This document shows positions 22,741-61,654 of a stretch of 64,000 nt of DNA, in pieces. A model generated the notes under the pieces. It saw nothing but the letters and a program-made list of their open reading frames with translations, searched no databases and was not told where the DNA came from. This DNA comes from Cheilinus undulatus (lineage: Eukaryota; Chordata; Actinopteri; Labriformes; Labridae), in NCBI RefSeq assembly GCF_018320785.1, contig NC_054878.1:43251023-43315022 (forward strand), in the 5' to 3' direction. Every line of letters begins with the position of its first letter. Positions within the stretch are counted from its first letter, which is position 1. The position numbers and the translations under genes are program-made.

Positions 22741-22743
22741 AAA

Positions 22744-33465: not shown

Positions 33466-33561
33466 CTGCAACTGAAACCAAACAACAACGATGAGCCCAC
33501 ATCACTCAGTTCTACAGGAAGTGGTCTTTATTAGTCAGAACCACAATGAACAGTGAGGTCA

Positions 33562-35450
33562 TGGTCTGAAACTAAACCGTCTGGTCTAGAGGTTCCTGTT
33601 AGAGCCCGCTCACCCATCCCCCCACACTTCACCTATGTTGCCTAGCACCTTGACCAACTGCAATGGCGGTAGATAGTGTCCAAACTCAAATTCCCCCAAA
33701 AGTTGGTATACTGTTTAAAATGTCAAGAAAAACAAAATACATTGATCTGAAATTACTTTTCAACTTGTAATCAACTGAATTCAGCACAATGATGCAATAT
33801 TTACTGATACTCTTTTACTTAAATATACTAATTTAATATAATATTATACTAAGCTAGTAAAAAATAAGTTATTACCCTAAATATTATAGATGTATATATA
33901 AATTATAAATTTCCTTGCATTTCCACCTCCCCTAGTTGGTTGTTTAGTGGAAAATAAAGAAAAGTTTAGAAAAGATGGAAGATTTTGGGGAAAACGGCTA
34001 AACGTGTATAAAACTGTTTAATAAAATGAAAGCAAAACATTTCTCACAAAAAGTAGTTCAAGTTAACTTTAAATTCCTGCCTTTCAAAGAAATTCATGTC
34101 AACTCAAGCAACTTGCAATGTTCATTCACTTCACTGGGTGGCGCTGTTGTGCAAAACATGGGTCCTACATCTATGGTCCTGCTGCCTGTAAGCCTGCAGA
34201 TACTTACTGTTGTATTCGTGCCTCTTCTTTTTGCCACTTCTTGCACATTTTGGCATTATTTACCAGGAGAAAAAACTTACTGAGATTAAAAATCAGTTTT
34301 TAAAGAGAGTCCTGGCTAAGACAGCAGCACAGTCAGAGTTACAGACAAACAATGAGCAGTCATACAAATAAAATGTCAAACAGCAGTACACTGAAGAGAA
34401 GCAAGTATTTGTTAAAATGGACTACAATCAAAACACATCATTGAAAACATCTGCAGACAGATGTGACTGCCTCCAAACCACCCAGCCTCCTCTTCCTGTA
34501 AAGACCAGAGTCCACATTAGTCTCTACTGTGTTCATTTTTGAATTGAATGATGCCACTATGAAAAGTTTCCTACCTTTGATTCTCATCCACATGTTGACA
34601 ATCACAACAGTCAGTATGAGTACTGCCAATCCCACAGACACAACCATTAACCTGAGCCTGAGACCTGCAACTGAAACCAAACAACAACGATGAGCCCACA
34701 TCACTGAGTTCTACAGGAAGTGGTCTTTAATAGTCCAAACCACAATGAACAGTGAGGTGTATTTGAAGCACCACAGCCCCCATCTGAAGACAAGACATCA
34801 ACTCTCTAGCTCTCTCCTCTACAGTCAGGCCACTATTAAAGAAATGCTGTTTATAGCAGCCTCCCTGGTTTACAAAGCAGCCTAAGACAGGAAGGACACT
34901 TAACAGCTGTGCTCCTGAAGACAACCATGAAACCCAAAATGCTGTTCTACTGTTTAGTGAATACACGTTTAGTGAAATATGGAGTCCTCAGTCCAAGGTG
35001 GGTCTGTGTCTGGTCTCAACTTGACCTCGAAATGTCTAGTGGGGCCACGTTGTTACATTAGATGGTTCTGTGTTACATGTCAATGTGAGTCTTAGTTCTC
35101 AGAGACATTAACGTTAGGAAGGCCAAGTACAGTTCATGAGCCACTGCTGTTTATTTAGTCTGAATCAGGCATCTGCAGCATCACCTCTGTCTTCTTTTCT
35201 TATTTATCTTTTTAAATGTACGTATTTATGACTGCTGACCCTCTTTACTAGTAACATTCATGTCTCCAGACTAATTCTTCTTAATGGGACTAAGCAGCAC
35301 AGTAGAACGTTTCCCAGAGTGTCACCAGTTAACACCATTGAAACACTGGTAATGAATTAACACTGCTTCTATACATCAGACTAAATGAAGGATAAAAAGT
35401 GTCATGTAAGTCAAATCCTCTTGCTGAGATTTCAGTTGGTACTTAATAAA
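33562..35450. repeat. recent segmental duplication, copy 2
   Basis: Partner of 20853-22740; the junction at about 33558 abuts the type-B TM region. High identity implies a recent tandem event or gene conversion. Confidence 0.85.
34575..34664 (-). pseudogene. orphan TM exon, type B, copy 3
   Basis: Same as 21866-21955 with the same downstream deletion junction (cctcctcttcctgtaaag), as expected from the segmental duplication. No ectodomain exons attached. Confidence 0.6.
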
Positions 35451-35451
35451 A

Positions 35452-36540
35452 TACAACCCTGATTCCAGAAAAGTTGGAGCACTGTGTAAAATGTAGATTA
35501 AAAAAAAATCAGAATGCAGTGATTGTCAAATCTCATAAACCCATATTTTATTCACAACAGAACACAAACAACATATCAGATGTTGAAACAGACATTTGAA
35601 CATTTCAGGACAAATATTAGCTCATTTTAAATTTGATGGCAGCAACGCATCTCAAAACAGCAGGGACAGGACCATGTTTAGCATTCTGTAGCATCCCCTC
35701 CAGTTGCTGGAGTGTTGGAGAGGAATGTTGTCCCATTCTTGTCTGATGTAGGATTCTCGCTGCATTGATTATCAACAGTCCTGGGTCTTCTTTGATGGAT
35801 TTTTTTCTTTTCTGATGCTCCAAATGTTTTCTGTTGGTGAAAGGTCTGGACTACAGACAGGACAGTTCAGCACCCAGACCCTTCTCCTGTGAAGCCATGG
35901 TGTTGTGATGAAGTATGTGGTTTCAAATTGTCTTGCTGAAATAATCAAGGCCTTCCCTGACAGAGACGTTGTCTGGATGGGAGCAGATGTTGCTCTAAAA
36001 CCTCCCTCTGCTTCTCAGCATTGATAGTTTCTTTCCAGATGTGTAAGCTGCCCACGCCATAGACACTAATGTAACCCCATACCATCAGAGATGCAGGATT
36101 TAGAACTGAGTTCTGATAACAAACTGGATGGTCTCTCGCCTTTTTTGTTCCCAGGACACAGTATCTGTGGTTTAAAAACAAGAAAAAGAGTCCATTTTTG
36201 ATCCATCTGACCACAGAACAGTTTTCCCATCATGTCTCAGTCTATTTTGAATGATCTTTGGCCCTGAGAAGATGGCAGCATTTCTGGATGGCACAGTGAA
36301 CTGTGTTAACAGTCAGTGATTTCTGGAAGTGTTCCTGAGTCCATGCAGTGATTTTCAGTACAGAATCATGTCTGTTTTTAATGCAGTGGCCCCTGAGGGC
36401 CCGAACATAAAGAGCATCCAGTATTGACCATCAGCCTTGTCTCTCGTGCAATTCTCTGAACCTGTTGATGATATTATGTTCTCTCTATGGTGGGATATTC
36501 AAATTCTTTGCCATTTTACATTGAGGAAAAATTTCTGAAT
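35452..36540 (-). mobile_element. Tc1/mariner-superfamily remnant, copy 4
   Basis: Same element and orientation as the other copies, just 3' of the tail exon at 36740-36832. Frames are broken. Confidence 0.75.
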
Positions 36541-36739
36541 CACAATTTGATCGGAAAATGTTACCAGAGCAGAAAAGAAACACTACTTTTTGAATAATAC
36601 AGTTCTTTTGTCATTCATTTTCTACCATTCATAAAGAGTTAAGAACACAACTGCAAAGCTACATATCAGAAGCTTTTCTCGAGCTTACAAAAACAATCTT
36701 AAATTGTTTGTTTTGTACATGTTTTTAAGGTCATGCAGA

Positions 36740-37441
36740 TCATTTGGTTCTTGATCTCTGGATTCTGACAGAAGCGTCATGGCCTCCACAGTTCTCATAG
36801 ATGACTGAACCAAAATCTTCATCGTTCTGTTCCTGTGGAAACAACAACTATGAATTTAGAATGTAGATTAAATTGATGGAAATATTTTCTGTTGTTCTGC
36901 AGCAAATAAGACGTAAAATAAAGGGAGAACTTTATTTTGGTGGGCCCAAATGCCTACTTATTACTAGATAATGACCTCCTTATTCTAAAGAAATGAGTAG
37001 CTAAGTAAACTTAAAATCTCTAGGTATGTTACTAAAATACAGTTGTAATTATTCTCACTCCATTTACTGGACAACAGTGAACTGTGAAATTCCACAAACA
37101 TGAGTTTTCTCTAACAGAATGTTTGAACTCACAGCATCAGGATCAATCTGGGTTTTGTTTCCTGTAAAGATAAAAGAGTTGGCATAAGTTTCAACAGTGT
37201 TGATCCACTTTATTGAATGATGCCACTATGAACATTTACATTTGGAGCTTTCTCACCTTTGATTCTGGTCCATATGCACACAGTCACAACAGCTAGAATG
37301 AGTGCTGCAAATCCCACAGACACAATGATAAACCTGAGCATGAAACCTGGATGATAAAACAAATACATAGAATCAAAAACAACAATGACTATTATTTTCC
37401 ACCTTCAACCTGGTGTCAGTTTGAAAGTTTGTACATCACAG

Positions 37442-37514
<73 letters not shown>

Positions 37515-40500
37515 TTAGTCATTTATTGTCATTGCATTGTAATCAAGCAACGAAATTACATTTGGCAGTCTCCTATGTAGTACCAAACACAGTCATCCAA
37601 GTGGTGGATAGAAATCCACAGCCTTATGTTGTCCATCCTGCTGGCGAGGGAGCAGGCATCCGTATGACAGGTTTGTGTAGGGTCGCTCTTAGCCTAGTCT
37701 GCGGCCCGGCTTGTTTGCCCCGCTTTCACCTTCTCGCACAATGCCGTTGCTGCCTCCTCCCCACTTGCCTATAGATGTTGTGCTGCTCAATCCACTGAGC
37801 ATCTTTTTACCGGATGCCTGCTCCCTCGCTAGCAGGATGGATGATGTGAGGCTGCGGATTTCTAACCACCACTTGGACGACTGTGATTGCTGCTACAGAG
37901 GAGACTGCCATATGTAATTTCGTTAGGTTTTTACAATGCAATGACAATAAACAACTATCTCTATCTCTATATAATTTAAGAGTGCATCTTTCTTGCTGCC
38001 AACTGCCGTGGTTGCCTGGCAACAGCATTTTTAAAAACTTCTTTAATGTCAAACTGGAAACAGGTTTCTACAAAATAATGTGAAACAAAAATATGTCATG
38101 TAAATTAAGTGACTTCATAAATATTCACCCTCTTTAAAGAGACTGACCTAATTCAACAGAGGTCCAAACAACTGGTGCTAGTAGTCTCACTATTAGTGAA
38201 ATAGGGATCACCTGAGTGCAGTGAATGAGTGTCAAGTGACTAGTATAAAGACATTTGTCTGGAAGGTCCAGTCACTGGCTAATCAGTATTCCTGGCTACT
38301 ATTACACCATGAGGACAAAAGAACACTCCAAGCAACTCAGAGAAAAGGTGATTGACAAGTAAAGTCAGTAGATGGATACAAAGACATTTTCAAGGAATGG
38401 AAATTTTAAGAAATGGAAGGAAGATGGCACATGTGTAAATCTGCCTGGATCAGACCATCCTCACAAACTGAGTAACTAGTGAGAAAGGCCGCGAAGACAT
38501 GACTACTGTGAAGGAGTTACAAGCCTCAGCAATGTTTTTTATAAGGATGTAGCATAGCATTATGAAACAAATATCATCAATTATACATGAGTGTTTTAGT
38601 CTCTCCGTCAAACTGGATGAATGGCCAAACTGACATCACATACCATATGTGAGTATATTAACTGCTATCTGAATGGGATTTTATACTTTCTACAGTACAG
38701 TTTGCTGTTGTAATATTTCCTAGTCATAGTGACTGTAATGTGGTCGTATTTACAGCCATAGTTAACGGTCAACTATTGCTAACAAAAAAATCCAAGTATA
38801 TTAGTTGTTTTATAAAGAATAAATCAAAAGTATGTAACTTTTCTGCAATTAGTTAGGTGCAGATCAACTAATGTAGAAACTACTCACCCACACATCTGCC
38901 AGAGCTGTTGGTGTACCCAGGAGGGCAGATGCATGTGTATGCACCAATGGTGTTGTTGCAATAAGCACCAGGACCACATGCATTAGGATCTTTGCACTCG
39001 TTGATATCTGACACAAGGACAAGTGAAGATGAGTAAGTGTTGGTGTAGAGCAGGGGTGGGCAATTAATTTTTACAAGGGGCCACATGAGAACCCTGAATT
39101 GTGTCAGAGGGCCGCACCAACGGTAACTTGAACTTTATTCTGTTCAACTTCATCCCATTGTAAAATGCACTAAATTATATATTTTGAATAGCTGGTACTG
39201 TCATGTACCATGGACTTTAACACAGAATAAAATCAGGACCCAAATGCACGACTCAGGAGACAGGTACACATGAAGCAAAAATCAAAATCTTTAATGCAGT
39301 CCGAGGCAAAACCAGAGATCTGAAAACTCACAGGCAAAGGTACAGACAGGGATCAGACAGGAGGGGAAACGGATAACTGGCTTGGTCGTAATCAATAAGG
39401 CTAGACGAGAGCAAACTAAAGAGCCGGAACGTGAACTGAGAAGAACAACAGACTGACAAGGAGGTGAGTGTGCAGGTGAGTATTATACTAAGACTAATCA
39501 GTGATGCAGGACAGGTGTGAGGAGCAGCATGCAGGACGGAGAGCAGCAGGGGGAGGAGACAAGGTGAGTGACACATGAGGGATCAGGAGTCAGTGAGGGA
39601 AAGGCGGGGCGAGGTGAGCGGAGAGTGATCAATCTAAAACAGAAAAGGAAAATTAGAACATGCAAAACATAAATCGACAAGAATGTGCAAAAATAAAAGT
39701 GAAAAAATAGACTTAACAGACAGGGATCGTGACAGGTACTGGTAATTGGTAGAATAAAAATAATCTGTGAATATTTACAATTCTTAACAAATTTATTAGA
39801 CCACCTATAATAAAAATGAGAAAATCTTTCAAAAACTTTTTTAAAACTAAAAATGTTATTATTTATTTGGCAAATAACAAACTGAAACAACTAAATAGTC
39901 CTTTTCACACATAATAACCAAAAAACTTCATATTTTGTATGGCCTCCTTTTGCCTTGATAACAGCTTGCATTCTTACTGCCATTGTTTTTATGGACTTTT
40001 CCACAGTCTCTTCTGTTAATGAGTTCCAAATAGTGTCTAGCTATTCCCACAGACTTGCTTTAGATGAAACTTTTGTGCCATCAATCTTTATTTTATTTTT
40101 ATTTTTAACCTTTATTTAACCAGATAATTCCCATTGAGATGGAGATCTCTTTTACAAGGGCGACCTGGCCAAGAGGTCAGCAGCACACGTCATAATAAAT
40201 AATACATTTCAGTGTCAGATCACAACAATAAGTCAAAAACAAACAGTACTATAGAAAGTGCATAGGTATTTGCAGATAAAGTGCTGGAAAATGACTCAGA
40301 AACAAATCTATAAACACAGGCACTGTTCTGAGGTCTCACTATGTCTGTCGTTTAAGACCGAACGAAATGCTCCAAGGGAAATGAGTTAAGACAAGTTCAA
40401 GTCAGTCTGGAGAGAGTTCCATGCCGAGGGGGCAAGAAAACTGAACGCTTTTTCCCCAATTCAGTTCTGACATGAGGAACAAACAGATGGACAATGCTGC

Positions 40501-43500
40501 TAGAGCGCAAGGCAAAATGGCTTTCAGTTCTTTGAAGAAGAGTACATAAATAAGAAGGAGCAAAGCCAAGGAGAGCCTTATAACTTTGAATCTACTAAAT
40601 CCCAAATTTGTTCAACAGGATTCACATTCGGACTTTGACTTGGCCAGTCCATCAGTTCTAGTACTCCAGATTCCTTTTTCTTGCTCCAATAGTCTCTGCA
40701 CAGCTTTGAAGTATGCTTGGGCTCATTGTCTTGTTGGTATATGAACCCACGACCAATCAGATTCAGTCCAGAAGGGATTCCATGATGCACTAAGATGTTG
40801 TGGTAAATGTTCTTGTTCATGATACCATCGATTTTCACTAATTTGCCCACGCCGTGTCCACAAATGGAACCCCATACCATAATGGAATCTCCACCGTGTT
40901 TCACTGTGGGTGTAATGCATCCGGCATCAAAATGTTATCCAGCTTTTCTGTGGACATAAACACGACGATGCTGACCCAAGAGTTCAAACTTGGACTCGTC
41001 CGTCCAGAGTACCTTCTTCCAGTCATCAACAGTCCTGTGTTTGTGCTCCCTATGTCTTTCCCTATTTGTCTCAGAGACCATCCAGCATCATGAAGTGCTT
41101 TAATGCCGACTCTTTCATTTTCAGTGAGCTCTCCATGTTTTACCATTTTGAACAGAAATGAGGAATTTCAAACTGAATTCACCTTTTTATACCCAAATTT
41201 GAGCCCGCTCACTGGGCTTCTCTGAGAAGTCTGAAATGAATCAAGCATAACATTCAACCACTAAAACTCAGGAATGCAAGTAAATAACTATAATTTGACA
41301 TATTAATCAAGAGATATTAATGTGCTCTGCTATTTTAATGAGAAAATACTCCTATAGAAGTAATAAACAAAAACAAAAACAATCATGGCATCGGTGCAGT
41401 TTATTTTTAACTTGTTGATCTCCACAAACACACACAAAAAAAAATAAGATTATACAAAAAACAATAACTTATAATGTTTTTCACTTCATTTTACCCCTTC
41501 AGTGAGAATAATCCAGTCTGTCTTGGGCTTGTGCAAGGGCATTGAAATCTGGCTGAATGTCTGAGGTGGCTATGCGAAGGACAGCTGAGAGGTGGTCATC
41601 AGTGATAGAGGATCTGTGTTTGGATTTGTCGGACTTCATCACTGAGAATGTCTGTTCACATACGTAGGTAGATCCAAAGAGGACTAGAATCTTCTGTGCA
41701 TGCCTCCTCAGGTGTGGAAAGTTCTCCTCTTTAAGGGAAGAGTAAAAATCCACTGATCTGAAGTGCTCTGTCAGAAGTGTGTTAGACTGCAGGTCAATGA
41801 GTTTCATCTGAACATTACTTGGTGCATTATCGACACTGTAAGTGAAGGGAGAAGAAACCATGTGCATTTCACTCTCAACTGAAATCACCTTGAAAACTCT
41901 CCATGCAGTGCTTCTAACATGGATAAGTACTTGTAGAGGTGATCAGCTGATCTTGTGGCTTCCTTTAGTGTTGGCAAATGGGTGAGAATGTGTCCTCCAC
42001 TTGGCTTGAGAGAAGCAGACTTTCTCATGAAAGCCTTCACTGCACTGTATATTTCATGCACAAAAAGGCCCTTACATTGCAGTTTGACATTTAGTTCATT
42101 CATTATTGCAGTCACATCCACAGCAAATCCGAGGTCTGCCACCCAGTCTTCATCTGAAAGCTGTGGGATGTCATGTCCTTTCTTCACACAGAAATCCTGA
42201 ATCTGGTCTCTAAGGCCCCAGACACTTTTCAGTACTTTGCTCAGGCTGAGCCACCTGACTGTGCAGTGATAGCTTATGTCACCGTTTTCAGTCTCATTTT
42301 CCTCCAAGTGCAATGAACTGTCTGCGATTTAATGCTCTCACTCTGATGAAGTTAACTATTTTAGTTACAGCATCAACAACATGGTTCATTTTTAACCCTG
42401 ACTACCTGAAAGTACAGACCAAGGTCCGTGTTTCTGTTACATTGTATACATTTGGTTTGGTCTGTCATTATTGCAAATGGACTAACAGACTTTACACGAC
42501 AAACCTATGTGATATGGTCATCAACTACGTGGTTTGCATGTCTCTGTAGTTTACATTGATTGGTCATTTGGCCGGCGGGCGTCTGACATCAACAAGTTAA
42601 ATAAAGCGAGTCTTGAATGTTGTAAACAATAAATGAAATCATCATTCCTACCATCATAATATTGATTTTCTACTACCAAAAGCAAAAACTTGAAGAGCTG
42701 TACATAAGGCTGGTCCGAGATCGTCCTTTGAGTTTTACCATTAGACGACAACTTTATCGTCGTCGACAGGAAAGGAGAAGAAAGTATGCAATCCTGCGAG
42801 CCATTGCAACACCGACTCGGGAGAAAAGGTATGTGTTGTAAAACTCTTGAAAAGATGAGCTGTCAATAGTGAAGTACAACTTTTTCTACAATTTTATGAA
42901 AATTTCTGTGCTTGGACAATCTCCATTTACCATTACTCCACGTTACTCCACACGTAACGTAAAGCTGCTACCATTAGCTCATCCTGTCCAGGCTGCTGGT
43001 CAATTTCAGTAGCGTTGTGGGCTCTTCTGCGGCTCATTTTGTTATGGTGATGGATTCACTTTGGCGGTAGACATGCAGTAATTTCCTGACATTGATACTA
43101 AGGTCGGAACCTTTCAAAATAATGCTTTCACACTAGGCATGACCCAGACCGTGGTTCTGTTTGGTCCGGACCGAGACCACCTCTTTTGGTTGGACCAAGG
43201 TCCGGCTGTTTGGTCTGGACCACGCTCCAGGGGAGGTTTCACACCTATCATTTTTGTTTGGACCAAACAGAAAAGTCCAGACCAAACGACATTGGTGTGA
43301 AAACCCCCTAACACAACACTTCCTGATATATTTACAATGCAAAAATGGCAATTTCTGCACAGGGTTAATTTCGGTCACTTCATCCTGCATTCTCTTCAAA
43401 AGTCCAACATTTTTTCCCATCAGATTTGGACAACCGTCTGTTGTCACCCTGCCAGCTTGTCCCATTTCAGTCCTAACTTGTCCCAACATGCATTTGTCTC

Positions 43501-46500
43501 TGTGAAAAAGTGGTTGTCCCTTTCACTGACTGCAATGCTGTGTGATTTGAAAGTCTGCAGTTATCTCAAGTAAGAAGATGAGTAGCTGGGCGGTGTCACG
43601 TACATCGCAGCTCTCATCCAAAGCCAGTGAAAAATAGTCAAAGTCGGTCGCTCTGTTCTTCAGCTGAAGCTCCAAGTTTCCAGCGATGTCCTCAACCCAC
43701 CTCGTTACAGTACATCGGAAGAGTGGCACTTTCTCAAATGCCCCCTTTTTCTCCGGGCATATCAGTGCAACAGAGTCCAATAAGAACTCCTTAATAAACT
43801 CTCCATCAGAAAACGCTTTACTTTTTCTGGTGATTTTGTGAGAAATTACATAACTTGTCCTGACAGCTGCATCTCTGGGTGTGCAACGTTTTGTAAAAAG
43901 TCCTTGTTGGGTTTGCAGTTTTGTTAGCAACACATCAGACTCCCTTACATGCTCTTCATCAGACAGATTTCTGTATTTATCCTCATGTTTGGTCATGTAG
44001 TGGCAATTCAAATCTTTTAACACAGCGACCTGTGTACCACAAATTAAACACAAGGCTTTACCTTTGACTTATGTAAAGAAGTACTTGGCAGTCCATGTTG
44101 AAAACACAGCATTCGTTATCAACTTTTCTTGGCGTGAGCGGACATCTTGAGGGTAACCTGGCTAGCATCACTTCTCGCTGTTCAACTTCACTCACGGCTC
44201 ATGCACACACATGCCTCCATGCCTATATGTTCTAATTTATGATTGGTCTCACACAGGCCAGTTTCCGTCTCTCTGTCAAACTGGACGAATGACCAAACTG
44301 ACATCACATACCATATGTGAGTATATTAACTGCTATCTGAATGGGATTTTATACTTTCTACAGTACAGTTTGCTGTTGTAATATTTCCTAGTCATAGTGG
44401 CTGTAATGTGGTCGTATTTACAGCCATAGTTTAATAACGGTCAACTGTTGCTAACAAAAAATCCAAGTATATTAGTTGTTTTATAAAGGATAAATCAAAA
44501 GTATGTAACTTTTCTGCAGCTAGCTAGGTGCAGATCAACTAATGTAGAAACTACTCACCCACACATCTGCCAGAGCTGTTGGTGTACCCAGGAGGGCAGA
44601 TGCATGTGTATGCACCAATGGTGTTGTTGCAATAAGCACCAGGAACACATGCATTAGGATCTTTGCACTCGTTGATATCTGACACAAGGACAAGTGAAGA
44701 TGAGTAAGTGTTGGTGCAGAGACACACTGTAGACACCGTGGCCTGTAAAACTCACCTTGGCACCGTCCGTTGAGCACTGTAAAGTTAATATTTCCTCTGA
44801 TGTTCATGTATCCCCGCTGGCACTGACAGTAGAAGCTTCCTGCTGTGTTGTAGCACTCTGCGTGTTTTCTACATGGGTCTGCAATTTCTTCACACTCATC
44901 CACGTCTGTAGATCAGAGTTAAATGAAAAAGCAAAAAAAAAAAAAGGAGCAGAAAAATATCTTACAGATCAACAGGACAATACAAAATGTTTCACAGTGA
45001 CAGTATGTTTGGTACATTTTGCAGGTAAATGATATTCCTCTCAGGAATCTGTTTGTAGAAACCTGTTTTTATTCTAACATTAAAGAAGTTAAAACAAACA
45101 AACAAACAAACAAACAAAAAAAAAGCTAAATTTTATTGACCATGACTGATTTATAAAATCAATAAAAGGGTAAAACATTAAATGGGGTGAATATTTTTTA
45201 TAAGCACTGTAGCTTAGCATTATGAAACAAACATATTTTATTATACATGAGTGTTTTAGTCTCTGTCAAACTGGACGAATGGCCAAACTGACATCATATA
45301 TGTGAGTATATTTACTCACTGAGTGCCATTGACGTATATATATTTTAAAGTGTTTTTGTCGGCGGCTGGCACAAGGGGGCGCACTCACACCCCCCTGTGA
45401 GTAATTTTGGGGCTTCTGGGATACGTAGTCGGGACACTACAGTTGGAAGTGACCGTAGATCAAACATCAGAGGTGGACACTCTGGGGTCAAAGAGCAGAA
45501 AGATCGTTACGGAGGTAATCTAAGCTTAAAGTTCTAACTTAGATGCTGGAAGAAACTTTAAACTTGCCTGAGAAATCGCTTACTCACTGAAACCGATACT
45601 GAACTTAACGACAGCGAATCCAGGGATGGGCGCTTTTATTGATCTGCCTTGGCCGGCAAAAAGGCTAAAGAATGCTGCAAGGTTCCCCCCTGTGCACTGG
45701 AAAAATAAGGTAGCCTCTCGCCAGCTGGATGCATACAGTGACAAGCAGGAGAGGACGTGGGCGTATAGGCAGGTCCTGCGGAGGCTGTCCAGTTCCAGAA
45801 TGTGAATGGCATAGCAGTGACTGGAAGCACTCTTATTTATTTTAAAATAAAGTAACATTTGTAATACAATTTTCAGATATCTTTTATGTCATTGAAGGCA
45901 AAATTGTAACATTCAAATCACTGTTCTGCTTGACAGACTCTTTCACAAAAATGTACTTTTCTCAGCTTTCTAGAAAAAAAGTGGTCTTTTTGGTAAAACT
46001 AGCCTCTATTCAACTTCAGATAAATCAAGAATGGAACAAGCTACAAACAAGCGTTTTTTTCCATGATAAAATAAAGAGATTCTTCTTTCATTTGAGCTAT
46101 TTGGGGTTTTCAGAATCATAGTACAAAATATTCTGTGGGTCTTGAAAGATGACTCAAAATGTCCAAAAATGCTGGCACAAGCCACTTTCCGTTTTATAAA
46201 AGGGCTGGCACTCAATGAGTTAACTGCTATCTGAATGGGGTTTTATCCTTTGTACAGTACTGTTTGCTGTTGAAATATTTCCTAGTCATAGTGGCTATAA
46301 TGTGGTCATATTTACAGCCATAGTTTAATAACTGTCAACTATTTGCTGACAAAAAAATCCAAGTATATTAGTTGTTTTCTAAAGAATAAATCAAAAGTAT
46401 GTAACTTTTCTGCAGCTAGCAAGATGCAGATCAACTAATGTAGAAACTACTCACCCACACATCTGCCAGAGCTGTTGGTGTACCCAGGAGGGCAGATGCA

Positions 46501-49500
46501 TGTGTATGCACCAATGGTGTTGTTGCAATAAGCACCAGGAACACATGCATTAGGATCTTTGCACTCGTTGATATCTGACACAAGGACAAGTGAAGATGAG
46601 TAAGTGTTGTTGCAGAGACACACTGTAGACACCGTGGCCTGTAAAACTCACCTTGGCACTGTCCGTTGAGCACTGTAAAGTTGATATTTCCTCTGATGTT
46701 CATGTATCCCTGCTGGCACTGACAGTAGAAGCTTCCTGCTGTGTTGTAGCACTCTGCGTGTTTTCCACAGAGGTCTGCAGTTTCTTCACACTCATCCATG
46801 TCTGTAGATCAGAGTTAAATGAAAAAGCAAAAAAAAAAAAAGAGCGCAGAAAAATATCTTACAGATCAACAGGACAATACAAAATGTTTTACAGTGACAG
46901 TATGTTTGGTATATTTTGCTGGTAAATGATAATCCTCTTACAAATCTATTTGTAGAAATCTGTTTTAACTCTAACGTTAAAGAGGTTAAAAAAATTTAAA
47001 AAAAGGCTAAATTTCATTGACCATGACTGATTTATAAAATCAATAAAAGGGTAAAACATCAAATGGGGTGAATAATTTTATAAGCACTGTAGCATAGCAT
47101 TATGAAACAAATATCATCAATTAACATCACATATCATATGTGAGTATATTAACTGCTATCTGAATGGGGTTTTATCCTTTGTACAGTACAGTTTGCTGTT
47201 GTAATATTTCCTAGTCATAGTGGCTGTAATGTGGTCGTATTTACAGCCATAGTTTTATAACTGTCAACTATTTGCTGACAAAAAATCCAAGTTTATTAGT
47301 TGTTTTATAAAGAATTAATCAAAAGTATGTAACTTTTCTGCAGCTAGCTAGGTGTAGATCAGTTAATGTAGAATCTACTCACCCACACATCTGCCAAAGC
47401 TGTTGGTGTACCCAGTAGGGCAGATGCTGTGCACACCGTGGCCTGTAAAAAATATCTTACAGATCAACAGGATAATACAAAATGTTTTACAGTGACAGAA
47501 TTGTTAGGTACATTTTGCAGGTAAATGATATTCCTCTCACAAAACGATTTTAACTCACTGAGTGCCAGCCCTTTTTGTTTTTTAAATGGAAAGTGGCTTG
47601 TGCCAGCATTTTTGGCCATTTTGAGTCAAGACCCATAGTATATTTTCTAATAAGACTCTATGACACCAAATAGCAAAGAAGAAACCCTCTATTCATCATG
47701 GAAAAAAAACATTTTTTTGCACGTTGTTCCATTCTTGATTTATTGTAAGTTGAATAGAGGCTAATTTCACTAAAAAGACCACTTGTTTTCTAGAAAGCTG
47801 AGAAAAATGCATTTTTTGTGAAAGAGTCTGTCAAGCAAAACAGTGATTTGAAAGTTAGAATTTTGCCTTCAATGACATAAAAGACATCTGAAAAGTGTAT
47901 AACAAATGTTATTTTATTGTGAAATAAATAAAAATAAATACAAAATACAGCACAATACAACTGGACGGCCACCACGAGACCCCCTATACGCCCACGTCAT
48001 CTAATGCTTGCGTGTCCCCTGGCACTGCCTGCAAATTAAAGAGGGAATATAATATAAAATATGTTAAATATATTATTTATATAATAAATAATCTATAATA
48101 CATAATTTTTTGTTCTTACCTCTTTTTCTGCCAACAGACGGTGTTGCAGAACTGCATGGGGCTTGCTCTTCTCTCAAGTATGCTTCTGAAATCCCAGGAG
48201 CATGAGTGATGGTTTTATTCGATAAATCTGGCTGAATAATCAGTGGGTTCCTAACGTTAACTTACAGAGTATCAGATGCCAGAGTATCTCTCTTGAGATA
48301 CTTAAGAAATACTTAATACAAAGGTAGTATAGCAGCCTAATGATTATGTAGGCTACATTAGAAATGGGCAACCTCCTTAAAACATGACTGAGCAGTTTGA
48401 CCGTCCAGAAATTGTCAAATGTGCATTCAGACCTGGAGTCTTTTTTAATGGACGCTGTCAGAGAGAGGAATAACGCCATGAGAGAGAAAAAGGTGAGTAA
48501 AAAGACCCTAAATATGTTTAGAACTACAAATTAACTTCTTTCTGTCAATTCTTGTTTTTGTAACATCACAATTCAAACCCTCATCCTTTATCTGGGCTTA
48601 GGACCGGCAAAAATGACTCAAGAGATGCTATGGCAGTTACTTAAAATTGTATTTTTAATTGTGTGTTTTTTATTCTTTTTTTCATAAGTTTAGTTTTCTT
48701 AATTTTGGTTAGTTTTGAAACTTAAGGTCCATTTAAGAGCCTACAACAAATCACAGTGAGACATGAACATTTTTAACCATTTGATTCATAATATGTTTTT
48801 TCTTTGGTTCTAAATGAACCAAAAAGAGACAATAGAAAAACTGTCAAAGTGCCTTCACAGCGCGGTTAAAATGCAGTCTGGACACAGAGGGGTGAACATC
48901 TCCTGCTCTGAATGCAGCTGACAGGGACTGCTGCGTGAAGACCTGGCTGCCTGCGAGTGCTCTGGGACAGGGAGGGGCTCACGGCTGCACCCACTGCTCA
49001 CTGAGAGGAGCAGCAACAACACATGCTTTCACATCAGAGTCTCATAAAGTCTCCAATAACACCAGAAAAAGTCGCTAGATTTGTCGCTAGTCTCTCCTTT
49101 TAAAAAAGAGTAGCTAGAGGGGTCTGGATACTCACTAAATATAGCGACAAAGTCACTAGGTTGGTAACACTGCTCCCAGGCAAAGTGCCTGATGAGACCT
49201 ACACCAGCCTGCTCGGGGTGCTAGCCCGCTAACATTCTTATCAGAAAAGCTGGCTGTGTTTGGCCATGGAAGAACACGATTAAGCTGTTTGGTCACTGAA
49301 GGGCAACTCTAACTTACTCTCCTTTTGTGTGAAAAAAACCCCCTCCTTAAATCCATCTCTCGTCGAACAGTCAAAGAAAGTATTTCAGCAAAAGCTGGAC
49401 ATTTTGACATTTGCTGTCGCTGTCATTGATCTGACTCTCAGTCTCAATATGCCTGTGTGAAGCGGCCGTGTGTGTAGGAAACCAGGAAAATGCAGAGTGA

Positions 49501-52500
49501 CTCATGAAAAAATGGAATGGATTTGATTGTGAAGCAATGGAATGTACGCTGGAGTAGACCGGTCATGCACTTAAACCGCCTTTTTTTTTTTTTAAGGTGA
49601 GGGGGACGTGACCCCCCGCCCATGGTTCTGCCGATGGCAACCAAGACAATGTCTCACCATTGGAGACATGAAGGTGCCCTAACTGTAATTTTAACTCTAA
49701 TGCTTAACATCAGCCCCCTGAAACATTTAATTGTTGATTTCGTAGCTTTGCTGCAGCTCCACCTACTGTAAGAAACTGAAAGCATCTCTTACACAATATA
49801 TCTTCAATCTTTGTTTTGTTTTTGCACTATACAATCACTCCTGCTCTTATCACCCCTACATATCGCCATTGTCCTTTGTCATACTGCCACCTACTGTTGA
49901 CAAGCAGTAGTAGCTCATATGAGGAGTGCACTCTTGGGGCTTTTCCACAACGGCTTTTGGCCGCGCCGAGCCAAACCAAGCCGTGCTGATTTGCATTCCC
50001 ATCACCAGTTTGGCCAGGCTGAGCTGTGCTTGAATGGCCCTGCTCATGAGTAGGGCCAAAGCAGGCCAGCCCCACCTTCAAGTGCGCCACAATGATGTCG
50101 AAACGCTTCGTGGGGTCCGATTTGCTGGGGGGATTTCCCCCCCTCTGCTACTGATAACCCCTCCATGACCAATTTTCACCCCACAGGGAGACCGGGGAGA
50201 TACATTTAATCCCTGCCTCTGCTCCAGCTGTCCATAACTCTGTGACAGCAGTGTCGGCATTCAGTGTTTGACTTATATTTATGACACAAGACCAAACTTG
50301 AGATTTTTGTGCATACTACGGTCGGATAGTTATGCATGGCTTCTCACACATGAGTGAGTTCAGGAAGGACCAGGCGCAGATCCAGGAATACACCTTTTTC
50401 TGCACCTATTAATAACCAAAGTTTGACCCTGTCTCCTCTTATTTTAGACTTTTAAAAAATAAAATGCTGGAGATGTTCGAAACATTTTGCCCATGACGAA
50501 GTCCGTCTTTAATTCATTAATTGGCGCTAAATCATGCTGTTCTCACTGCCCAATTCAAAAATATGATTGTGTTCACATTCTGCTCTTTAGAGACCCACAA
50601 ATCAATAGGGGAGACCAGGGACAGTTGTAACATTTTTGAGATTTCTGTCTCTAACTTTGAGCTCTTTTAACCCAGTGTGTTCAAACTGCTATACAAACTA
50701 GCTTCAAGTGTCTGCTAAAAAATGGCCTAGAATATACCTGTGCAACACAAACAGAAAATGCATGGCTAGTTTCAAATACAAGGAGTGAAATGTGACAATT
50801 GACCCCATAGTCCAGGTGAGTGGGAACATTCCTTGGGTTGAAATGTAACATTATGAAATAAGGATCATGACAATGACTTAAGATAATAAAAGCTTTTTGT
50901 TCGAAACTTTTAAACAAAATTGCTGTGGTTCTGCAGAGTAAAGACTTAAACTACACTAACATCTGAACATTTATAATAATAAAACTGTACAAAAGGTGCA
51001 ACTGTGCGCTAGGTTCAACAATCAAACAGTGTGTGTTTGTCTGACACTAAAATTTAGAAATAATAAAAATGAACAAAATCTGATAACATACACTGGCTTC
51101 AACAACTGAATGTAGGTGTGGGTGTGTGTGTGTGTGTGTGTGTGTGTGGGGTGGGGGGGCATGTATGTTTGTTAGTTGGTGTCAGTGTCGGACAGACAGT
51201 GCTGACAGGTGTATGGCACTCCTGGAGTGCATGCTTCATGGGCCCACAGATGACATGCCATGCACTTAACCCCGGCTTCTTTTGGCTTTGAGTTATTGAA
51301 GTGTTTCATGCAGATGATACAGAAATGATCATCATCAGAGGACTCTGTCTCCTGTGGCTCAGTGTTCTGGGTTTTCTCCTTTTACTTTCCTGGAGTTCTC
51401 TTTTGTAGCCTGGGACGCTGTTGGTTTGCTTTGTAAGTTGTAACGACCCCAAGCAAGTTTGTTACAACTGTCCCTGAGTGCATTAGCGATGAGCTAGCAA
51501 GGCTTACAGCTAACAGCTAAAACATTACCACAAACAATCTGAATGAAAGGTAGCTAAACAGACATATAATCAACATGAGAAACGTTTGATGAGTTCAACC
51601 ACAAAGCAGGCTATGTAATCACAAAAACAATTAAAGCAAAAAAAAAAAAAAACTTTCTTACCTCAAAATTATGTTTTCTCTCACAACTTTTGCTGTGTCT
51701 GCTTCAGGGCACTACTTAATCTACACATGTGGACTAAGGACCAAACTGAGCATGTGCAAGGAGACTGTTCTTTAACTTTAAATTCTCTCCTTTTGGTGAT
51801 AAGCGGGAATTGTTGTTTGTTTACTGATCACGGGATAAGGAGGGAGAGAGTGACAGGGAGAGAGAGAAAAAAGAGCAGCTTGCAGTGCTGTCGGTCCACA
51901 GTTTGATTTTTGCCTTAAAACGATGTAAAGTCATTCGGATCAGATTATGTAGAGAGATCGAGGAGGGCTCACAACACTGCGTCATCAGCTCTAGCCCTCA
52001 AACAGGTAGCTCGGCTGTGGTGGAAAAGCAAACCCCATGCTGGCGTGCTGAGTTGAGCTGAGTCAAGCCGAGCAGCGCCATGTAATTGAAAAGCCCCATA
52101 TGCTCATTTTTTTCAGTGTAATAACGCGCCTGGGAGGATCTGCATGGATCCACAAGCCATGAATAAATAAATGAAAATACTTGTGCTGGCTGATAACAGT
52201 GGTGCTTTTTCAGGTTAAAAGTAAAAAATGACTTTCACAGCTTATTTACAATGGACAATGATTTTGCTGACCTCCATGGGCCCCCAGTTTAGCTGGGCCC
52301 CATAGAGCACCACGTTTTATCCTCCCCTATGGTTGGCCTTAAACATAACAACATAAAAACCATAGACGACCAGCAAACTTGTCTGTCCAACTTAAATCAA
52401 CGTCAACACTGTTAATACTGATAAAAACATCTAAAACATCTATGTATAAGTTTGTTTATCCTTACCTGTACAGACAAGCATCAGCATCCCAAACAAAAGC

Positions 52501-53880: not shown

Positions 53881-54153
53881 CCCCCCCCAAAATTTGCATG
53901 TTGTATTAAAAAAAAAAAATCATTTTAAACTAAATCCAAATGCAATTTCAGCTGAAATTGTGTGGGGATGCTGAGAGCTGAACTGTGTAAGAATTGCTGT
54001 AAATAGATGAAAAAGCAACAAAATAGCTGAAAACAAAATAAAGACTGGTAATGAATTAACACTGCTTCTACACATCAGACTAAATCAAGGATAAAAAGTG
54101 TAATCTAAGTCAAATCCTCTTGCTAAGACTTCAGATGGTACTTAAAAAAAATA

Positions 54154-55230
54154 CAACCCTAATTCCAGAAAAGTTGGGGCACTTTGTTAAAGGCATATTA
54201 AAACAAAACAAAACAAAACAAAACAAAAAAAAAACAGAATGCAGTGATTGTAAAATCTCATAAACCCATATTTTATTCACAACAGAACACAAACAACATA
54301 TCAGATGTTGAAACTGAGACATTTTAACTTTTCAGGACAAATATTAGCTCATTTTGAACTGATGACAGCAACACATCTCAAAAAAGCAGGGACAGGGCCG
54401 TGTTTAGCATTCTGTAGCATCCCCTGCTGGAGTTTTGGAGAGGAATGTTGTCCCATTCTTGTCTGATGTAGGATTCAAGCTGCCCAACAGTCCTGGGTCT
54501 TCTTTGATGGATTTTTTTTCTTTTCTGATGCTCCAAATGTTTTCTATTGGTGAAAGGTCTGGACTACAGACAGGACAGTTCAGCACCCAGACTCTTCCCC
54601 TGTGAAGCCATGCTGTTGTGATGAAGTATGCGGTTTAAATTTGTCTTGCTGAAATAGTCAAGGCCCTCCCTGACAGAGACGTTGTCTGGATGGAAGCAGA
54701 TGTTGATCTAAAACCTCTCTCTACTTCTCAGCATTGATAGTTTCTTTCCAGATGTGTAAGCTGCCCACGCCATATACACTAATGTAACCCCATACCATCA
54801 GAGATGCAGGATTTAGAACTGAGCTCTGATAACAAACTGCTCCTCTCCTCTTTAGTCCACAGGATTCAGGACTCTGTGGTTTCCCAAAAAACAAAAAACA
54901 GAAATTCAAATTTTGATCCATCTGACCACAGAACAGTTTTCCCATCATGTCTCAGTCTATTGTTAATGATCTTTGGCCCTGAGAAGACGGCAGCATTTCT
55001 GGATGGCACAGTGAACTGTGTTAACAGTCAGTGATTTCTGGAAGTGTTCCTGAGCCCGTGCAGTGATTTCCAGTACAGAATCATGTCTGTTTTTAATGCA
55101 GTGGCCCCTGAGGGCCCGAACATAAAGAGCATCCAGTATTGACCTTAAGCCTTGTCTCTGAATCTGTTGATGATATTATGTTCTCTATATGGTAGGATAT
55201 TCAAACTCTTGCCATTTTACATTGAGGAAA
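54154..55230 (-). mobile_element. Tc1/mariner-superfamily remnant, copy 5
   Basis: Minus-strand frame keeps LNCPVCSPDLSPIENIWSI, the SPDL(S/N)P(I)E region of Tc1/mariner transposases. It lies 3' of the lectin receptor's tail exon, as with the Ig receptors, tying this cassette to the same duplication series. Confidence 0.75.
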
Positions 55231-55467
55231 AAATTCTTGATTACAATTTGATCGGAAAATATTACAAGAGCAGAAAAGAAACACTAGTTTTTGAATAATA
55301 CAGTTCTTTTTTCATTCATTTTCTACCATTCATAAAGAGTTAAGAACACAACTGCAAAGCTATATATTAGAAGCTTTTCTCAAGCTTACAAAAACAATCT
55401 TAAATTGTTGAAATCTTCATTAATAACATATGTATAACTATGTTACATGTTGTAAAGTTCATACAGA

Positions 55468-56254
55468 TCATTTAGTTCTTGATCTCTGGATTCTGACAGA
55501 AGCCTCATGGCCTCCAGAGTTCTCAAAGATGACTGAACCAAAATCTTCATTGTCCTGTACCTGTGGAAACAACAGCTATCATTTTATAATCTAGATTAAA
55601 TTGATGGAAATATTTCCTGTTGTTCTGCAGCAAATAAGACTTGAAATAAAGGGAGAACTTTATTTTATTGGGCCCAAATGCCTACTTATTTTTGGATAAT
55701 GACCTCCTTATTCTTGACAAATTAGTGGCTAAGTAACTTAAAATCTCTAGGTATGTTACTAAAATACAGCTCTAATTATTCTCACTCCATTTATTGGACA
55801 ACAGTGAACTGTGAAATTCCACAAACATGAGTTTTCTCTAACAGAATGTTTGAACTCACAGTATCAGGATCAATCTGGGTTTTGTTTCCTGTAAAGATAA
55901 AAGAGTTCGCATAAGTTTCAACAGTGTTGATCCACTTTATTGAATGATGCAACTATGAACATTTACATTTGGAGCTTTCTCACCTTTGATTCTGGTCCAT
56001 ATGCACACAGTCACAACAGCTAGAATGAGTGCTGCTAATCCCACAGACACAATGATAAACCTGAGCATGAGACCTGGATGATAAAACAAATACATAGAAT
56101 CAAAAACAACAATGACTATTATTTTCCACCTTCAACCTGGTGTCAGTTTAAAGATTGTATGTCACAGGAAAGAAGGAGCAACATGGGTGGAGCCGAGAAA
56201 TCTGATTGATCGCTCCAGTGGTCCCGCTAAAATTCTACTCTTAAAAGATAGATG

Positions 56255-56299
<45 letters not shown>

Positions 56300-59200
56300 T
56301 CATTGATACCCGCTCCCTCGCCAGCAGGATGGATGATGTGTTGCTGCAGATTTCTATCCACTGCTTGGACGACTGTGTTTTGTGCTACAGAGGAGACTGC
56401 AAAATGTAATTTCGTTGCGTTTTTACGATGCAGTGACAATAAACGACTATCTCTATCTCTATATAAATCAAGAGTGCATCTTTCTTGCTGCTAACTGCTG
56501 TGGTTGCCTGGCAACAGCATTTTTTAAAAACCTCTTTAATGTTGAACTGAAAACAGGTCTCTACAAAATAATGTGAAACAAAAATATGTCATGTAAATAA
56601 AGTGACTTCATAAATATGGCCAAACTGACATCACATACCATATGTGAGTATATAAACTGTGCTGTCTGAATGAGATTTTGTCCTTTGTACAGTACAGTTT
56701 GCTGTTGTAATGTTTCCTAGTCATAGTGGCTATAATGTGTCCGTAATTACAGCCATAGTTTAATAACTGTCAACTATTTGCTGACAAAAAATCTGAGTTG
56801 TTTTATAAAGAATAAATTACAAGTATGTAACTTTTCTGCAGCTGGCTAGGTGTAGATCAACTAATGTAGAAACTACTCACCCACACATCTGCCAGAGCTG
56901 TTGGTGTACCCAGGAAGGCAGATGCATGTGTATGCCCCAACGGTGTTGTTGCAATAAGCACCAGGACCACATGCATTAGGATTGTTGCACTCGTTGATAT
57001 CTGACACAAGGACAAGTGAAGATGAGTAAGTGTTGGTGTAGAGACACACTGTAGACACCGTGGCCTGTAAAACTCACCTTGGCACAGTCCATTGAGCACT
57101 GTAAAGTTGATATTTCCTCTGATGTTCATGTATCCCCGCTGGCACTGACAGTAGAAGCTTCCTGCTGTGTTGTAGCACTCTGCGTGGTTTCCACATGGGT
57201 CTGCAATTTCTTCACACTCATCCACGTCTGTAGATCAGGTTTTAAATTGATGAAGCAACAAAAAGAGTGGAAAAATATCTTACAGATCAACAGGACAATA
57301 CAAAATGTTTCACAGTGACAGTATGTTTGGTACATTTTGCAGGTAAATGACATTCCTCTCACAAATCTTTTTGTAGAAATCTGTTTTTACTCTAACATTA
57401 AAGCGTTTTTTTTGTTTAAAAAAGCCAAATTTCATTGACCATGACTGATTTATAAAATCAATAAAAGCGTAAAACATCAAATGGGGAGAATATTTTTTCA
57501 TAAGCACTTCAGCATAACATTATAAAACAAACAGCATTAATTATACATGAGCGTTTCAGTCCAAGGTCCAAGTCCAAAAAATCCAAGGTTATTAGTTGTT
57601 TTATAAAAGAATAAATCAAAAATATGTAAGTTTCTGCAGCTACCTAGGTGTAGATCAACTAATGTAGAAACTACTCACCCACACATCTGCCAGAGCTGTT
57701 GGTGTACCCAGGAAGGCAGATGCATGTGTATGCACCAATGGTGTTGTTGCAATAAGCACCAGGACCACATGCATTAGGATTGTTGCACTCGTTGATATCT
57801 GACACAAGGACAAGTGAAGATGAGTAAGTGTTGGTGTAGAGGCACACTGTGCACACCATAGTATGTATAACTCACCTTGGCACAGTCCGTTTAGCACTGT
57901 GAAGCTGATATTTCCTCTGATGTTCATGTATCCCCGCTGGCACTGACAGTAGAAGCTTCCTTCTGTGTTGTAGCACTCTGCATGTTTTCCACATGGGTCT
58001 GCAATTTCTTCACACTCATCCACGTCTGTAGATCAGGTTTTAAATTGATGAAGCAACAAAAAGAGTGGAAAAAATAAAAATATAAAAAATATCTTACAGA
58101 TCAACAGGATAATACAAAATGTTTCACAGTGACAGTGTGTTTGGTACATTTTGCAGGTAAATGATATTCCTCTCACAAAACAATTTTAAAAACTGTTGTT
58201 CTAGCATGAGTGTCTACTTCCTTTGCTTTATATGCAGCTTGAGACAGTAAGCTCTGAGTGCTTATAAGAGAAAGTGATGGTGTCACACTTCAGAGCACAG
58301 AAACTGTGTGAAATAGAGGCAGAACTTCTTGAACAAACTGCTTTCCTGGACAAAAAAATATTTGGTCCCATTTTTGCCCCTTTTCACCATTTTTTCTCCA
58401 GATGTTCACTAATTCATTCATTCACTCATTTTTTGTCACTTCTCACACATTTTGCTACTTTCTGACCCCTTTTCCACTTTTTGTCCCCATTCTCACCCTT
58501 TTTCACCCCTTTTCACCCCTTTTTGTTGCTTTTGACCATTTTTGCCTCCTTTAGCTTATTGTTTTTGTACTTCAAGCTGTTTTTGCTTCACCTCAGTTGT
58601 TGCTCTTGCAAAGGTATTTTTAAACAATTTGGCTCTTTGGTTGAGCAGGGTTGAGTAACACTACTGTGAACAGTATCTCCACTATCTTTAGCACAATCTC
58701 ACACACCTTCAGCCTTTAGGCTCAAGAGGCTAATCTGTCAATAAGACAGTGTTAAATTTTTTGGTTAACTAAATTCTATATTTTGAGCAATAATTTAAAA
58801 TTCTTCACAAATCAGGTATTGCACTCTTCAAATTTTATGCTATTTTCAGCTATTTTTCCTCTATTTTCAGCTATTTCTATGCTTTTTCAGCCATTGAATG
58901 CCATTTTCAGCCACTTTATGCTATTTTCAGGTATTTTTATGCTATTTTCAGCTACTTTTATCCTTTTTAGCTACCAAATGCCATTTCAGCTACTTTTATG
59001 GCGTTTTATGCTATTTTTTTGCTATTTTTGTGCTTTTTGGCTATTTTTAGCAGTTCTTCCACAATTTAGCTCTCAGCATCCTCATCCCCAATTTCAGCTG
59101 AAATTGCAGTTTTGATGTAGTAATGCATTTTGATCTTACCTTCCTGACAGCTTGATCCTGTGAAGCCAGGATGGCACTTGCAGGTGAAGTTCCCAACAGT

Positions 59201-59876
59201 CTCCACACAGTCTGCATGCTCACTGCAGGAATCGTGTTTGCAAGAGGCTGCATATAAAGAAATTCTTTGGTAAGTCTTCAGAGGTTTATTACCATCCAAT
59301 AGCTGTCCATAGAGCAAACTAGAGTTTTACCTGTGTAGCAGACAGTTCCCTTCTTCTTACGGCAGTTCTCATTATTCCACTTGCCTGAGTCCACTACCCT
59401 CTTTATGTACATTTCCACACAGTCCTGTGCCAAAGTGTTATCTGGCTCATTGTGGGCCCAATTCTGGGCTTCTTGGGGTATCGTCTTATTGCTTTGAGCC
59501 CAAATCCACTTTCCCCCCTCTTTGCGAATACCTATCCAATAATACTTTGAGTGAAATGGCAGCATGTTGTTGAGGTAGTCATTCTCCTCTTTGCTTCTGA
59601 TGGACACCATGTCTGTGAAGTGCTGCTGGCACCACTGACGGGCCTGAAGCCATCCGCGGTTTGTGCTGACGCTGTAGTTGTAGGTCCATGCTTGTGCTCC
59701 TCCTCTGCTGCTCAGGTCTGAGGTAACAAACACAGACAGTAAAACAAAGCTGCTCTGGCAAAGCGTGAATACAAAATTGACTGAAAAGTAGACCAACCTT
59801 GAAAAACAACAAAGAGCACAGCAATCAGCACCATATGATGCAGACTTCTCCTACCACCAACAGACTCCTGAACCAT
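55468..59876 (-). CDS. selectin-type lectin/EGF receptor with Ig-receptor TM and tail (mosaic)
   Basis: Exons: leader 59798-59876 (ATG 59874-59876; MVLIAVLFVVFQ core), C-type lectin 59331-59717 (129 codons), selectin EGF 59140-59247, EGF 57876-58025, 57679-57798, 57078-57227, 56881-57000, TM 55984-56073, 29-nt exon 55860-55888, last exon 55468-55560. All joins are phase 1 except the last, phase 0; total 1326 nt, 441 aa. The lectin domain is selectin-like (WTYNYS, YYWIGIRK, DCVEMYIKR) and is followed by a selectin EGF (SCSEHADCVETVGNFTCKC). Selectins then have sushi repeats; none is visible here, and EMR/CD97-type cbEGF modules follow instead. The Ca-site residues read EPD and WNN rather than EPN and WND. 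The tail is VIFENS, without Tyr. Probably a cell-surface glycan-binding adhesion receptor. The TM join is inferred from position, strand and phase. Confidence 0.68.
56245..56460. repeat. (GATA)n plus single arm of the 37.5-kb inverted repeat
   Basis: About 13 GATA units, then cgctccctcgccagcaggat through aataaacgactatctctatc, matching only the right arm of 37517-37965. Confidence 0.8.
58370..58560. repeat. TTTTCACCCCTTTT-type degenerate array
   Basis: C/T-rich irregular repeat in the intron between the selectin EGF and the next EGF exon. No sushi-domain exon found in this intron (58026-59139). Confidence 0.6.
58780..59060. repeat. TATGCTATTTTCAGCTATTTT tandem array
   Basis: About a dozen degenerate roughly 20-bp units; the same array plus flank (ctcagcatcc, atttcagctgaaattgca) recurs at 61220-61560. 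Confidence 0.75.
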
Positions 59877-61219: not shown

Positions 61220-61560
61220 GGCTACTTTCAGCTATTTTTATCCTTTTTTTAGCTACTAAATGCCATTTTCAGCTACTTTAATGGCATTTTATGCTATTTT
61301 CATGCTATTTTCAGCTATTTTTATGCTATTTTCAGCTATTTGAAGGCTTTCAGCTATTCTTAAGCTATTTTTAGGCTACTTTCAGCTATTTTTTTAATCC
61401 TTTTTAGCTAATAAATGCCATTTAAGCTACTTTTATGGCATTTTATTCTATATTTATGTTAGGTTTTGGCTATTTTTGTGCTTTTTGGCTATTTTCAGCA
61501 GTTCTTCCACAAGTCAGCTCTCAGCATCCCCATGCAATTTCAGCTGAAATTGCAATTTTG
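61220..61560. repeat. second TATGCTATTTTCAGCTATTTT array
   Basis: Same orientation and same 3' flank as 58780-59060, so the block was duplicated around the lectin exons. Confidence 0.75.
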
Positions 61561-61654
61561 ATCTATAGTTCAAACTGTTCGAACATTTTTTCCACTTTTA
61601 GCCAATTTTTGCCACTTTTAATCCATCCATACTGTCCCCTATTGTTGACAGGCA

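Follow-up and report, generated by a model that had tools for sequence, protein, structure and literature searches.

In a 64,000-nt stretch of Cheilinus undulatus contig NC_054878.1 (the window, in whose coordinates all positions, including those in kb, are given), ten minus-strand exons between 59876 and 55468 link a selectin-type lectin head to a series of calcium-binding EGF (cbEGF) modules and to a membrane anchor that neighbouring immunoglobulin (Ig)-type receptors also carry. By combining comparisons of each part with Pfam, PDB and human selectins with a comparison of the duplicated copies inside the window, we arrive at a reading that we consider reasonably probable, namely that this selectin-headed gene is a real protein-coding chimera that captured its anchor from an Ig-type neighbour and whose product serves as a tether. 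The predicted product is a type I membrane protein consisting of a signal peptide, the selectin lectin and EGF unit, four cbEGFs, a single transmembrane helix and a short tail. Exon structure, homology of the parts and the breakpoint are observations, whereas splicing, expression, ligand, function and the direction of transfer are deduced.

Architecture of the selectin-headed gene

The gene opens with a 79-nt leader exon (59798-59876, phase 0-1) encoding MVQESVGGRRSLHHMVLIAVLFVVFQ, a putative signal peptide read by eye, followed by a 387-nt selectin-type C-type lectin exon (59331-59717, phase 1-1; recognized by Pfam, PDB and alignment to human selectins) and a 108-nt selectin-type EGF exon (59140-59247, phase 1-1; PDB comparison). 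Four cbEGF exons, found by both Pfam and PDB, alternate between a 150-nt and a 120-nt form: a1 (57876-58025), b1 (57679-57798), a2 (57078-57227) and b2 (56881-57000). Hydrophobicity and copies elsewhere in the window define the 90-nt transmembrane exon (55984-56073), and such copies likewise define a 29-nt cytoplasmic exon (55860-55888, phase 1-0) and the last coding exon of 93 nt (55468-55560), which encodes the tail DFGSVIFENSGG and the stop. Joined, these exons form an open frame of 1,326 nt and 441 residues whose TGA ends at 55468, reproducing the single strand, the phases and the lengths (79/387/108/150/120/150/120/90/29/93 nt) given in an earlier note on this DNA. All nine introns have GT...AG borders, every junction up to the 29-nt exon is in phase 1, and the 29-nt exon shifts the phase from 1 to 0; the ten exons are free of premature stops, frameshifts and damaged splice sites. 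Within the 441 residues, Pfam finds Lectin_C (1.6e-23) and EGF_CA (1.2e-37, five stretches), and of all 19-residue windows the 12 with the highest hydrophobicity begin at residues 370-382, marking the one transmembrane stretch of the model.

The selectin character of the head is clear from its closest relatives. Among the best 60 of 79 PDB matches of the lectin-EGF unit, the six best distinct sequences are all selectins (2.3e-53 to 1.6e-50; P 2.3e-53, L 2.1e-51, E 2.1e-51), while the first non-selectin, the PLA2 receptor, trails by 31 orders of magnitude in E-value, at 1.6e-19. Identity to the human proteins is 80/153 for P-, 78/153 for L- and 77/153 for E-selectin (50-52%), compared with 96 to 101 of 154 among the human selectins themselves, and 22 of the 82 positions invariant in the three human proteins are changed here, N82D, E88Q and D106N among them. 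A selectin-type C-type lectin-like domain (CTLD) followed by a selectin EGF, one membership feature of CTLD group IV, is present. A six-frame motif scan detects one CTLD in the whole window, the lectin exon having no second copy.

At its calcium site the head departs from human selectins. The selectin site comprises E80, N82, E88, N105 and D106, as given in the accessible part of PMC9146328. The set reads E-N-E-N-D in human selectins and E-D-Q-N-N here; E80 and N105 are kept, as is N83, and the loop after N83 is one residue shorter than in the human proteins. Retained are Y48, E92, Y94, K111, K113 and every cysteine common to the three human selectins, and R97 matches E- and L-selectin while E107 matches P- and E-selectin. 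Of these, we take Y48, E92, Y94, R97 and E107 to be contacts of sialyl-Lewis x. For docked sialyl-Lewis x, the available text of PMC12193806 names Glu88, Asn82, Glu92 and Glu107. Because three of the five calcium residues are substituted and the following loop is shorter, sialyl-Lewis x binding cannot be assumed, and ordinary selectin binding by this head is doubtful; the head may still bind calcium, through a changed cage. These same changes leave the function proposed earlier, that of a new adhesion receptor, without support. We suggest that the head would bind a glycoprotein ligand on another cell and, since the calcium cage is altered relative to human selectins, that this ligand is probably not plain sialyl-Lewis x.

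Behind the head, the cbEGF part matches ADGRE5/CD97 best in PDB (5.3e-36), followed by NOTCH1 (1.9e-20) and NELL2 (1e-18), so that it carries the feature of an ADGRE-type EGF array, though NOTCH1 and NELL2 match too. Two of the four modules are of the 150-nt N-x-N/S-F-T type with a longer last loop, and the other two are 120-nt cbEGFs. A CD97/EMR-like source appears to fit best; because no GPS motif of such a gene turned up in the window, descent from an EMR/CD97 gene and mere resemblance to one are both compatible with the data. In the proposed protein, a calcium-stiffened EGF stalk would take the place of sushi repeats in holding out the lectin head.

The shared anchor and its junction

The transmembrane region recurs at 3.5, 14.9, 24.6 and 37.4 kb with 98-99% identity. 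When the three anchor exons are taken as one stretch of 212 nt, these copies differ from the selectin-headed gene at 11 (3.5 kb), 4 (14.9/12.7 kb), 7 (24.6 kb) and 10 (37.4 kb) positions, corresponding to 95-98% identity; variation is greatest in the 93-nt exon, which differs at 1 to 9 of its 93 positions. The transmembrane, 29-nt and 93-nt exons thus share a single origin with those of the local Ig receptors. Three of the four other copies lie beside Ig-type ectodomains and the fourth, at 37.4 kb, follows an EGF array at 47.4-38.9 kb. The cassette had been described as nearly identical to that of neighbouring two-Ig-domain receptors: the near-identity stands, whereas Ig neighbours accompany only three of the four copies and the second Ig exon finds no Pfam support.

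All three Ig-type receptors lie on the minus strand. The first (2906-6526) comprises a V-set open reading frame (ORF) at 6131-6526, a second-exon ORF at 5783-6106, a transmembrane exon at 3423-3512 and a tail exon at 2906-2998; the second (12673-16979) has the corresponding parts at 16461-16979, 16079-16597, 14799-14888 and, for a tail exon assigned by position, 12673-12765; and the third (23965-26674) has them at 26207-26674, 24996-25508, 24481-24570 and 23965-24057. Each V-set ORF matches Pfam above the cut-off (6.5 kb, 6.7e-9; 17.0 kb, 3.6e-9; 26.7 kb, 1e-7). The second ectodomain exon has no Pfam match above the cut-off in any of the three genes and is Ig-like only by eye; those at 16.4 and 25.5 kb show a clear relationship to each other, and the one at 6.1 kb a weak one (0.002, 22% identity). 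With the selectin-headed gene these receptors share all three anchor exons (transmembrane, 29-nt and 93-nt), the intervening intron and the 3' region, but they differ in their V-set ectodomain and in part in their tails. The tail motif reads VVYEN in the 3.5- and 24.6-kb copies, VIYEN in the 37-kb copy and VIFEN in both the selectin-headed gene and the 12.7-kb exon, so that three of the five tail copies have tyrosine at this position and the tail of the selectin-headed gene, with phenylalanine, contains no tyrosine at all. Phosphotyrosine-x-N is a Grb2-type motif. Lacking tyrosine, the tail would more likely serve as an anchor or tether than in signalling.

Where the anchor was joined to the EGF exons can be read from the intron before the transmembrane exon. 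Followed back from the transmembrane exon, this intron matches the 14.9-kb copy at 95% identity over 187 nt, as far as 56246, and the 3.5-kb copy at 91% over 183 nt, as far as 56242; homology to both stops beside an (AGAT/TATC)n microsatellite at 56246-56299, which we infer to be the junction. Beyond the TATC array, the 37-kb EGF array is the sole one of the five regions compared that shares homology (90% identity over 313 nt). The 3.5- and 14.9-kb Ig copies continue to align with each other upstream of this point (83% across 268 columns in total, plus 63 at 79%). Because these two copies share more intron beyond the breakpoint, their link to the anchor looks older, and the anchor probably moved from an Ig-type gene to the EGF gene, although the reverse direction is possible.

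We propose that an Ig-type receptor nearby supplied its transmembrane and tail exons, in a block of about 2.2 kb whose copy came to lie downstream of the EGF exons and was joined to them at the TATC microsatellite; the join would be in frame because all extracellular exons and the transmembrane exon are in phase 1. On the simplest history, the Ig-type anchor block would first have been copied to a place behind an EGF array, and that array would later have duplicated. The duplicated 3' block (54040-56246, minus strand), comprising the anchor exons, the 3' region and a Tc1-like remnant, is 88-90% identical to blocks at 1.7-3.7, 22.6-24.7 and 35.3-37.4 kb. The second EGF array with the same anchor (36740-47431, minus strand) contains modules a at 46.8, b at 46.6, a at 44.9, b at 44.7 and b at 39.0 kb, followed by transmembrane (37257-37346), 29-nt (37133-37161) and 93-nt (36740-36832) exons. 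The order of EGF exons followed by a transmembrane exon therefore occurs twice, in the 56-kb gene and in the 37-kb array; the motif scan of the window finds no lectin head for the second array. Taken together, the chimera claimed in the earlier note is upheld by the homology of its parts (selectin head, CD97/EMR-like EGFs, Ig-receptor anchor) and by the mapped breakpoint, with the amendment that only half of the cbEGFs are of the 150-nt type.

A more tentative extension of the chimera reading, which we put forward as possible, is that the cluster exchanges heads: one anchor block of about 2.2 kb would stand behind unrelated phase-1 ectodomains (Ig three times, an EGF array once, a selectin head with an EGF array once), and the selectin head, with its E-D-Q-N-N set, would have been retuned to a new ligand. 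If so, the birth of receptors by capture of a 3' module could be read here in a local and recent example. The arrangement suggests that lectin-type and Ig-type surface receptors can exchange modules inside one cluster, and a microsatellite junction within a young duplication would open exon shuffling to study while its traces are still legible. Should the gene be expressed, a selectin head without a sushi stalk on a foreign anchor would serve as a natural experiment on the contribution of sushi repeats and tails to selectin function.

Coding status and competing explanations

Signs of constraint come chiefly from the EGF exons. In six pairwise comparisons (not independent) of the four complete EGF a-b units, the 270 exon sites contain no gap columns in any pair and the flanks contain 5 to 36, and substitutions are rarer in exon than in flank in all six pairs, with one-sided p<0.05 in five. 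Because they lack indels and have changed less than their flanks, the EGF exons look coding. In the corresponding test of the anchor block, covering four of the five copies (all save the 14.9/12.7-kb one), the 212 exon sites likewise contain no gaps in six pairs.

Several observations weigh against a working chimera. The EGF pairs lack independence, gene conversion may have reduced the differences between their exons, and the exon-flank contrast of the anchor block reaches p<0.05 in only two of its six pairs. The 93-nt exon, for which counts are thin, shows no clear synonymous excess (for example 7 changes in 70.8 sites compared with 2 in 19.2 between the selectin-headed gene and the 3.5-kb copy). 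The leader donor, GTTGGT, is weak, by eye the weakest of the nine. Substitution of three of the five calcium-site residues (N82D, E88Q, D106N) could mean a decaying as well as a redirected lectin. As for the capture itself, the 24.6-kb Ig copy parts from the selectin-headed gene at 56187 and shares no further intron, so that the direction of transfer is read from two of the three Ig copies, and the EGF-to-transmembrane join is drawn from order, strand, phase (which would agree by chance one time in three) and the second array.

In a competing reading, the locus is a recent but non-working chimera, EGF exons and the 5' piece of a selectin having been stranded in a fast-duplicating receptor cluster where they are rarely or never transcribed. 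Such an origin would suit a cluster full of duplicated, partial and transposon-invaded pieces, including a headless EGF array, a truncated EGF at 47.4 kb, three diverged transmembrane copies and a hAT element, and it would account for the substituted calcium ligands and for a tail exon without clear signs of constraint. We nonetheless regard it as unlikely: all ten exons are intact, the EGF exons evolve more slowly than their flanks and without indels, and the head has kept Y48, E92, Y94, K111, K113 and all shared cysteines, with R97 as in E- and L-selectin and E107 as in P- and E-selectin.

Less probable still is one larger gene, in which the lectin head would skip the 56-kb anchor and splice to the second EGF array (46.8-39.0 kb) and the 37-kb anchor, or would do so in a long form made alongside the short one. 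The exons concerned do share phase-1 borders and the strand, and no lectin head belonging to the second array turns up in the window. However, the first anchor is complete, with a terminal exon, a stop and an ATTAAA 371 nt 3' of the stop codon, and about 8.7 kb separates its last exon from the next EGF.

Absence of sushi repeats, as asserted before us, is borne out on three counts: Pfam finds no sushi domain in the 441-residue protein and none in ten ORFs chosen from the introns, and a six-frame regular-expression scan of the 64 kb returns neither sushi nor GPS motifs, although the scan had a positive control only for its CTLD and EGF patterns, which recovered the known exons. Hidden sushi exons were rejected on these results, and an assembly gap was rejected because the window contains no N. 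It is accordingly very improbable that this is an ordinary fish selectin or adhesion G-protein-coupled receptor group E gene whose sushi or GAIN/seven-transmembrane exons are located elsewhere or dropped out of the assembly, an explanation that the selectin head and ADGRE-like EGFs would suit but that runs against the gap-free window, these negative scans and the twofold occurrence of EGFs running straight to a transmembrane exon.

Known receptor families and further elements of the window

With SELE, SELL and SELP the gene shares the order of leader, CTLD and EGF; it differs from these selectins in having a cbEGF stalk where they have a sushi stalk (two, six and nine short consensus repeats in L-, E- and P-selectin, respectively; PMC7076219, in the part available), an Ig-receptor transmembrane segment and tail, and an altered calcium site. 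Since neither of two selectin features, the sushi repeats and the calcium set, is found, we treat the gene as a chimera with a selectin head rather than as a true selectin. Its plan of CTLD, EGF repeats and transmembrane segment is that of CTLD group XIV (thrombomodulin, CD93, CD248, CLEC14A), whose members, according to the accessible text of PMC6852297, also have a sushi-like region before the EGFs (except thrombomodulin) and a mucin-like stretch; the gene described here has no sushi match and no room for a mucin between the last EGF and the transmembrane segment. Membership in group XIV is unlikely, as no group XIV chain appears among the best 60 of 79 PDB matches, which selectins lead, a ranking made by PDB comparison and not by direct alignment to group XIV. 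Adhesion G-protein-coupled receptors of group E (ADGRE5/CD97 and the EMRs) resemble the gene in their cbEGF array; their GAIN/GPS region and seven transmembrane helices are not seen here, the window yielding no GPS motif (in the scan without positive control for it) and the model a single transmembrane segment. Zebrafish possesses four paralogs of cd97 and no fewer than 14 EMR-like genes (PMC4335454, available part), so that possible EGF donors would be plentiful in a fish.

Non-classical fish CTLD proteins, selectin-related or with a CTLD-EGF-transmembrane plan, are described in the available portion of PMC514892, which places all three selectins of fugu in a tandem cluster. Of the non-classical fugu proteins, NLSLH (novel L-selectin homologue) is reported there to be probably a soluble single CTLD without a carbohydrate motif and CETM is assigned to group XIV, both unlike the gene described here. 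Among the open-access literature matches listed, by title and abstract and without a search of fish protein databases, none describes a fish selectin-type lectin with cbEGFs and without sushi repeats. Scans of viral contigs yielded nothing related to either the head or the cbEGFs. From the scan of a bacterial and archaeal genome collection came a single locus (contig L001:5001-6140) in a metagenome-assembled genome of an uncultured delta-proteobacterium, with 42% identity in its best segment over query residues 137-255, the EGF part; it may be binning contamination.

Across the 64 kb, the six-frame motif scan returned ten EGF modules on the minus strand; the plus strand gave two EGF-like matches that overlap and are of low complexity. 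One b-type EGF in the second array, at 47384-47431, is truncated, its first half missing, and a hAT element lies between the exons of that array at 44.6 and 39.0 kb. The remains of this hAT-family transposase (41505-44068, minus strand) form several separate ORFs, with a Dimer_Tnp_hAT match of 2.1e-7 in 41505-41942. Diverged transmembrane copies at about 22.0, 33.5 and 34.7 kb (minus strand; 82% nucleotide identity, 66.7% over 30 residues) had no Ig, EGF or lectin ectodomain that we could find beside them. The segments 20850-24669 and 33559-37446 are 3.9-kb duplicates of 95% identity. Two Tc1/mariner-like DDE_3 remnants, both on the minus strand and below the Pfam cut-off, lie at 54410-54634, inside the duplicated 3' block and 3' of the tail exon of the selectin-headed gene, and at 40584-40934. 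A cysteine-rich ORF at 51175-51381 (minus strand) gives a sub-threshold C1 match (2.1e-5; 24.7 bits, the cut-off being 26.5). Finally, the intron after the selectin EGF exon contains an imperfect 10/21-nt tandem repeat (GCTATTTTCA-like) at 58833-59047, to which a stretch at 61277-61565 is related.

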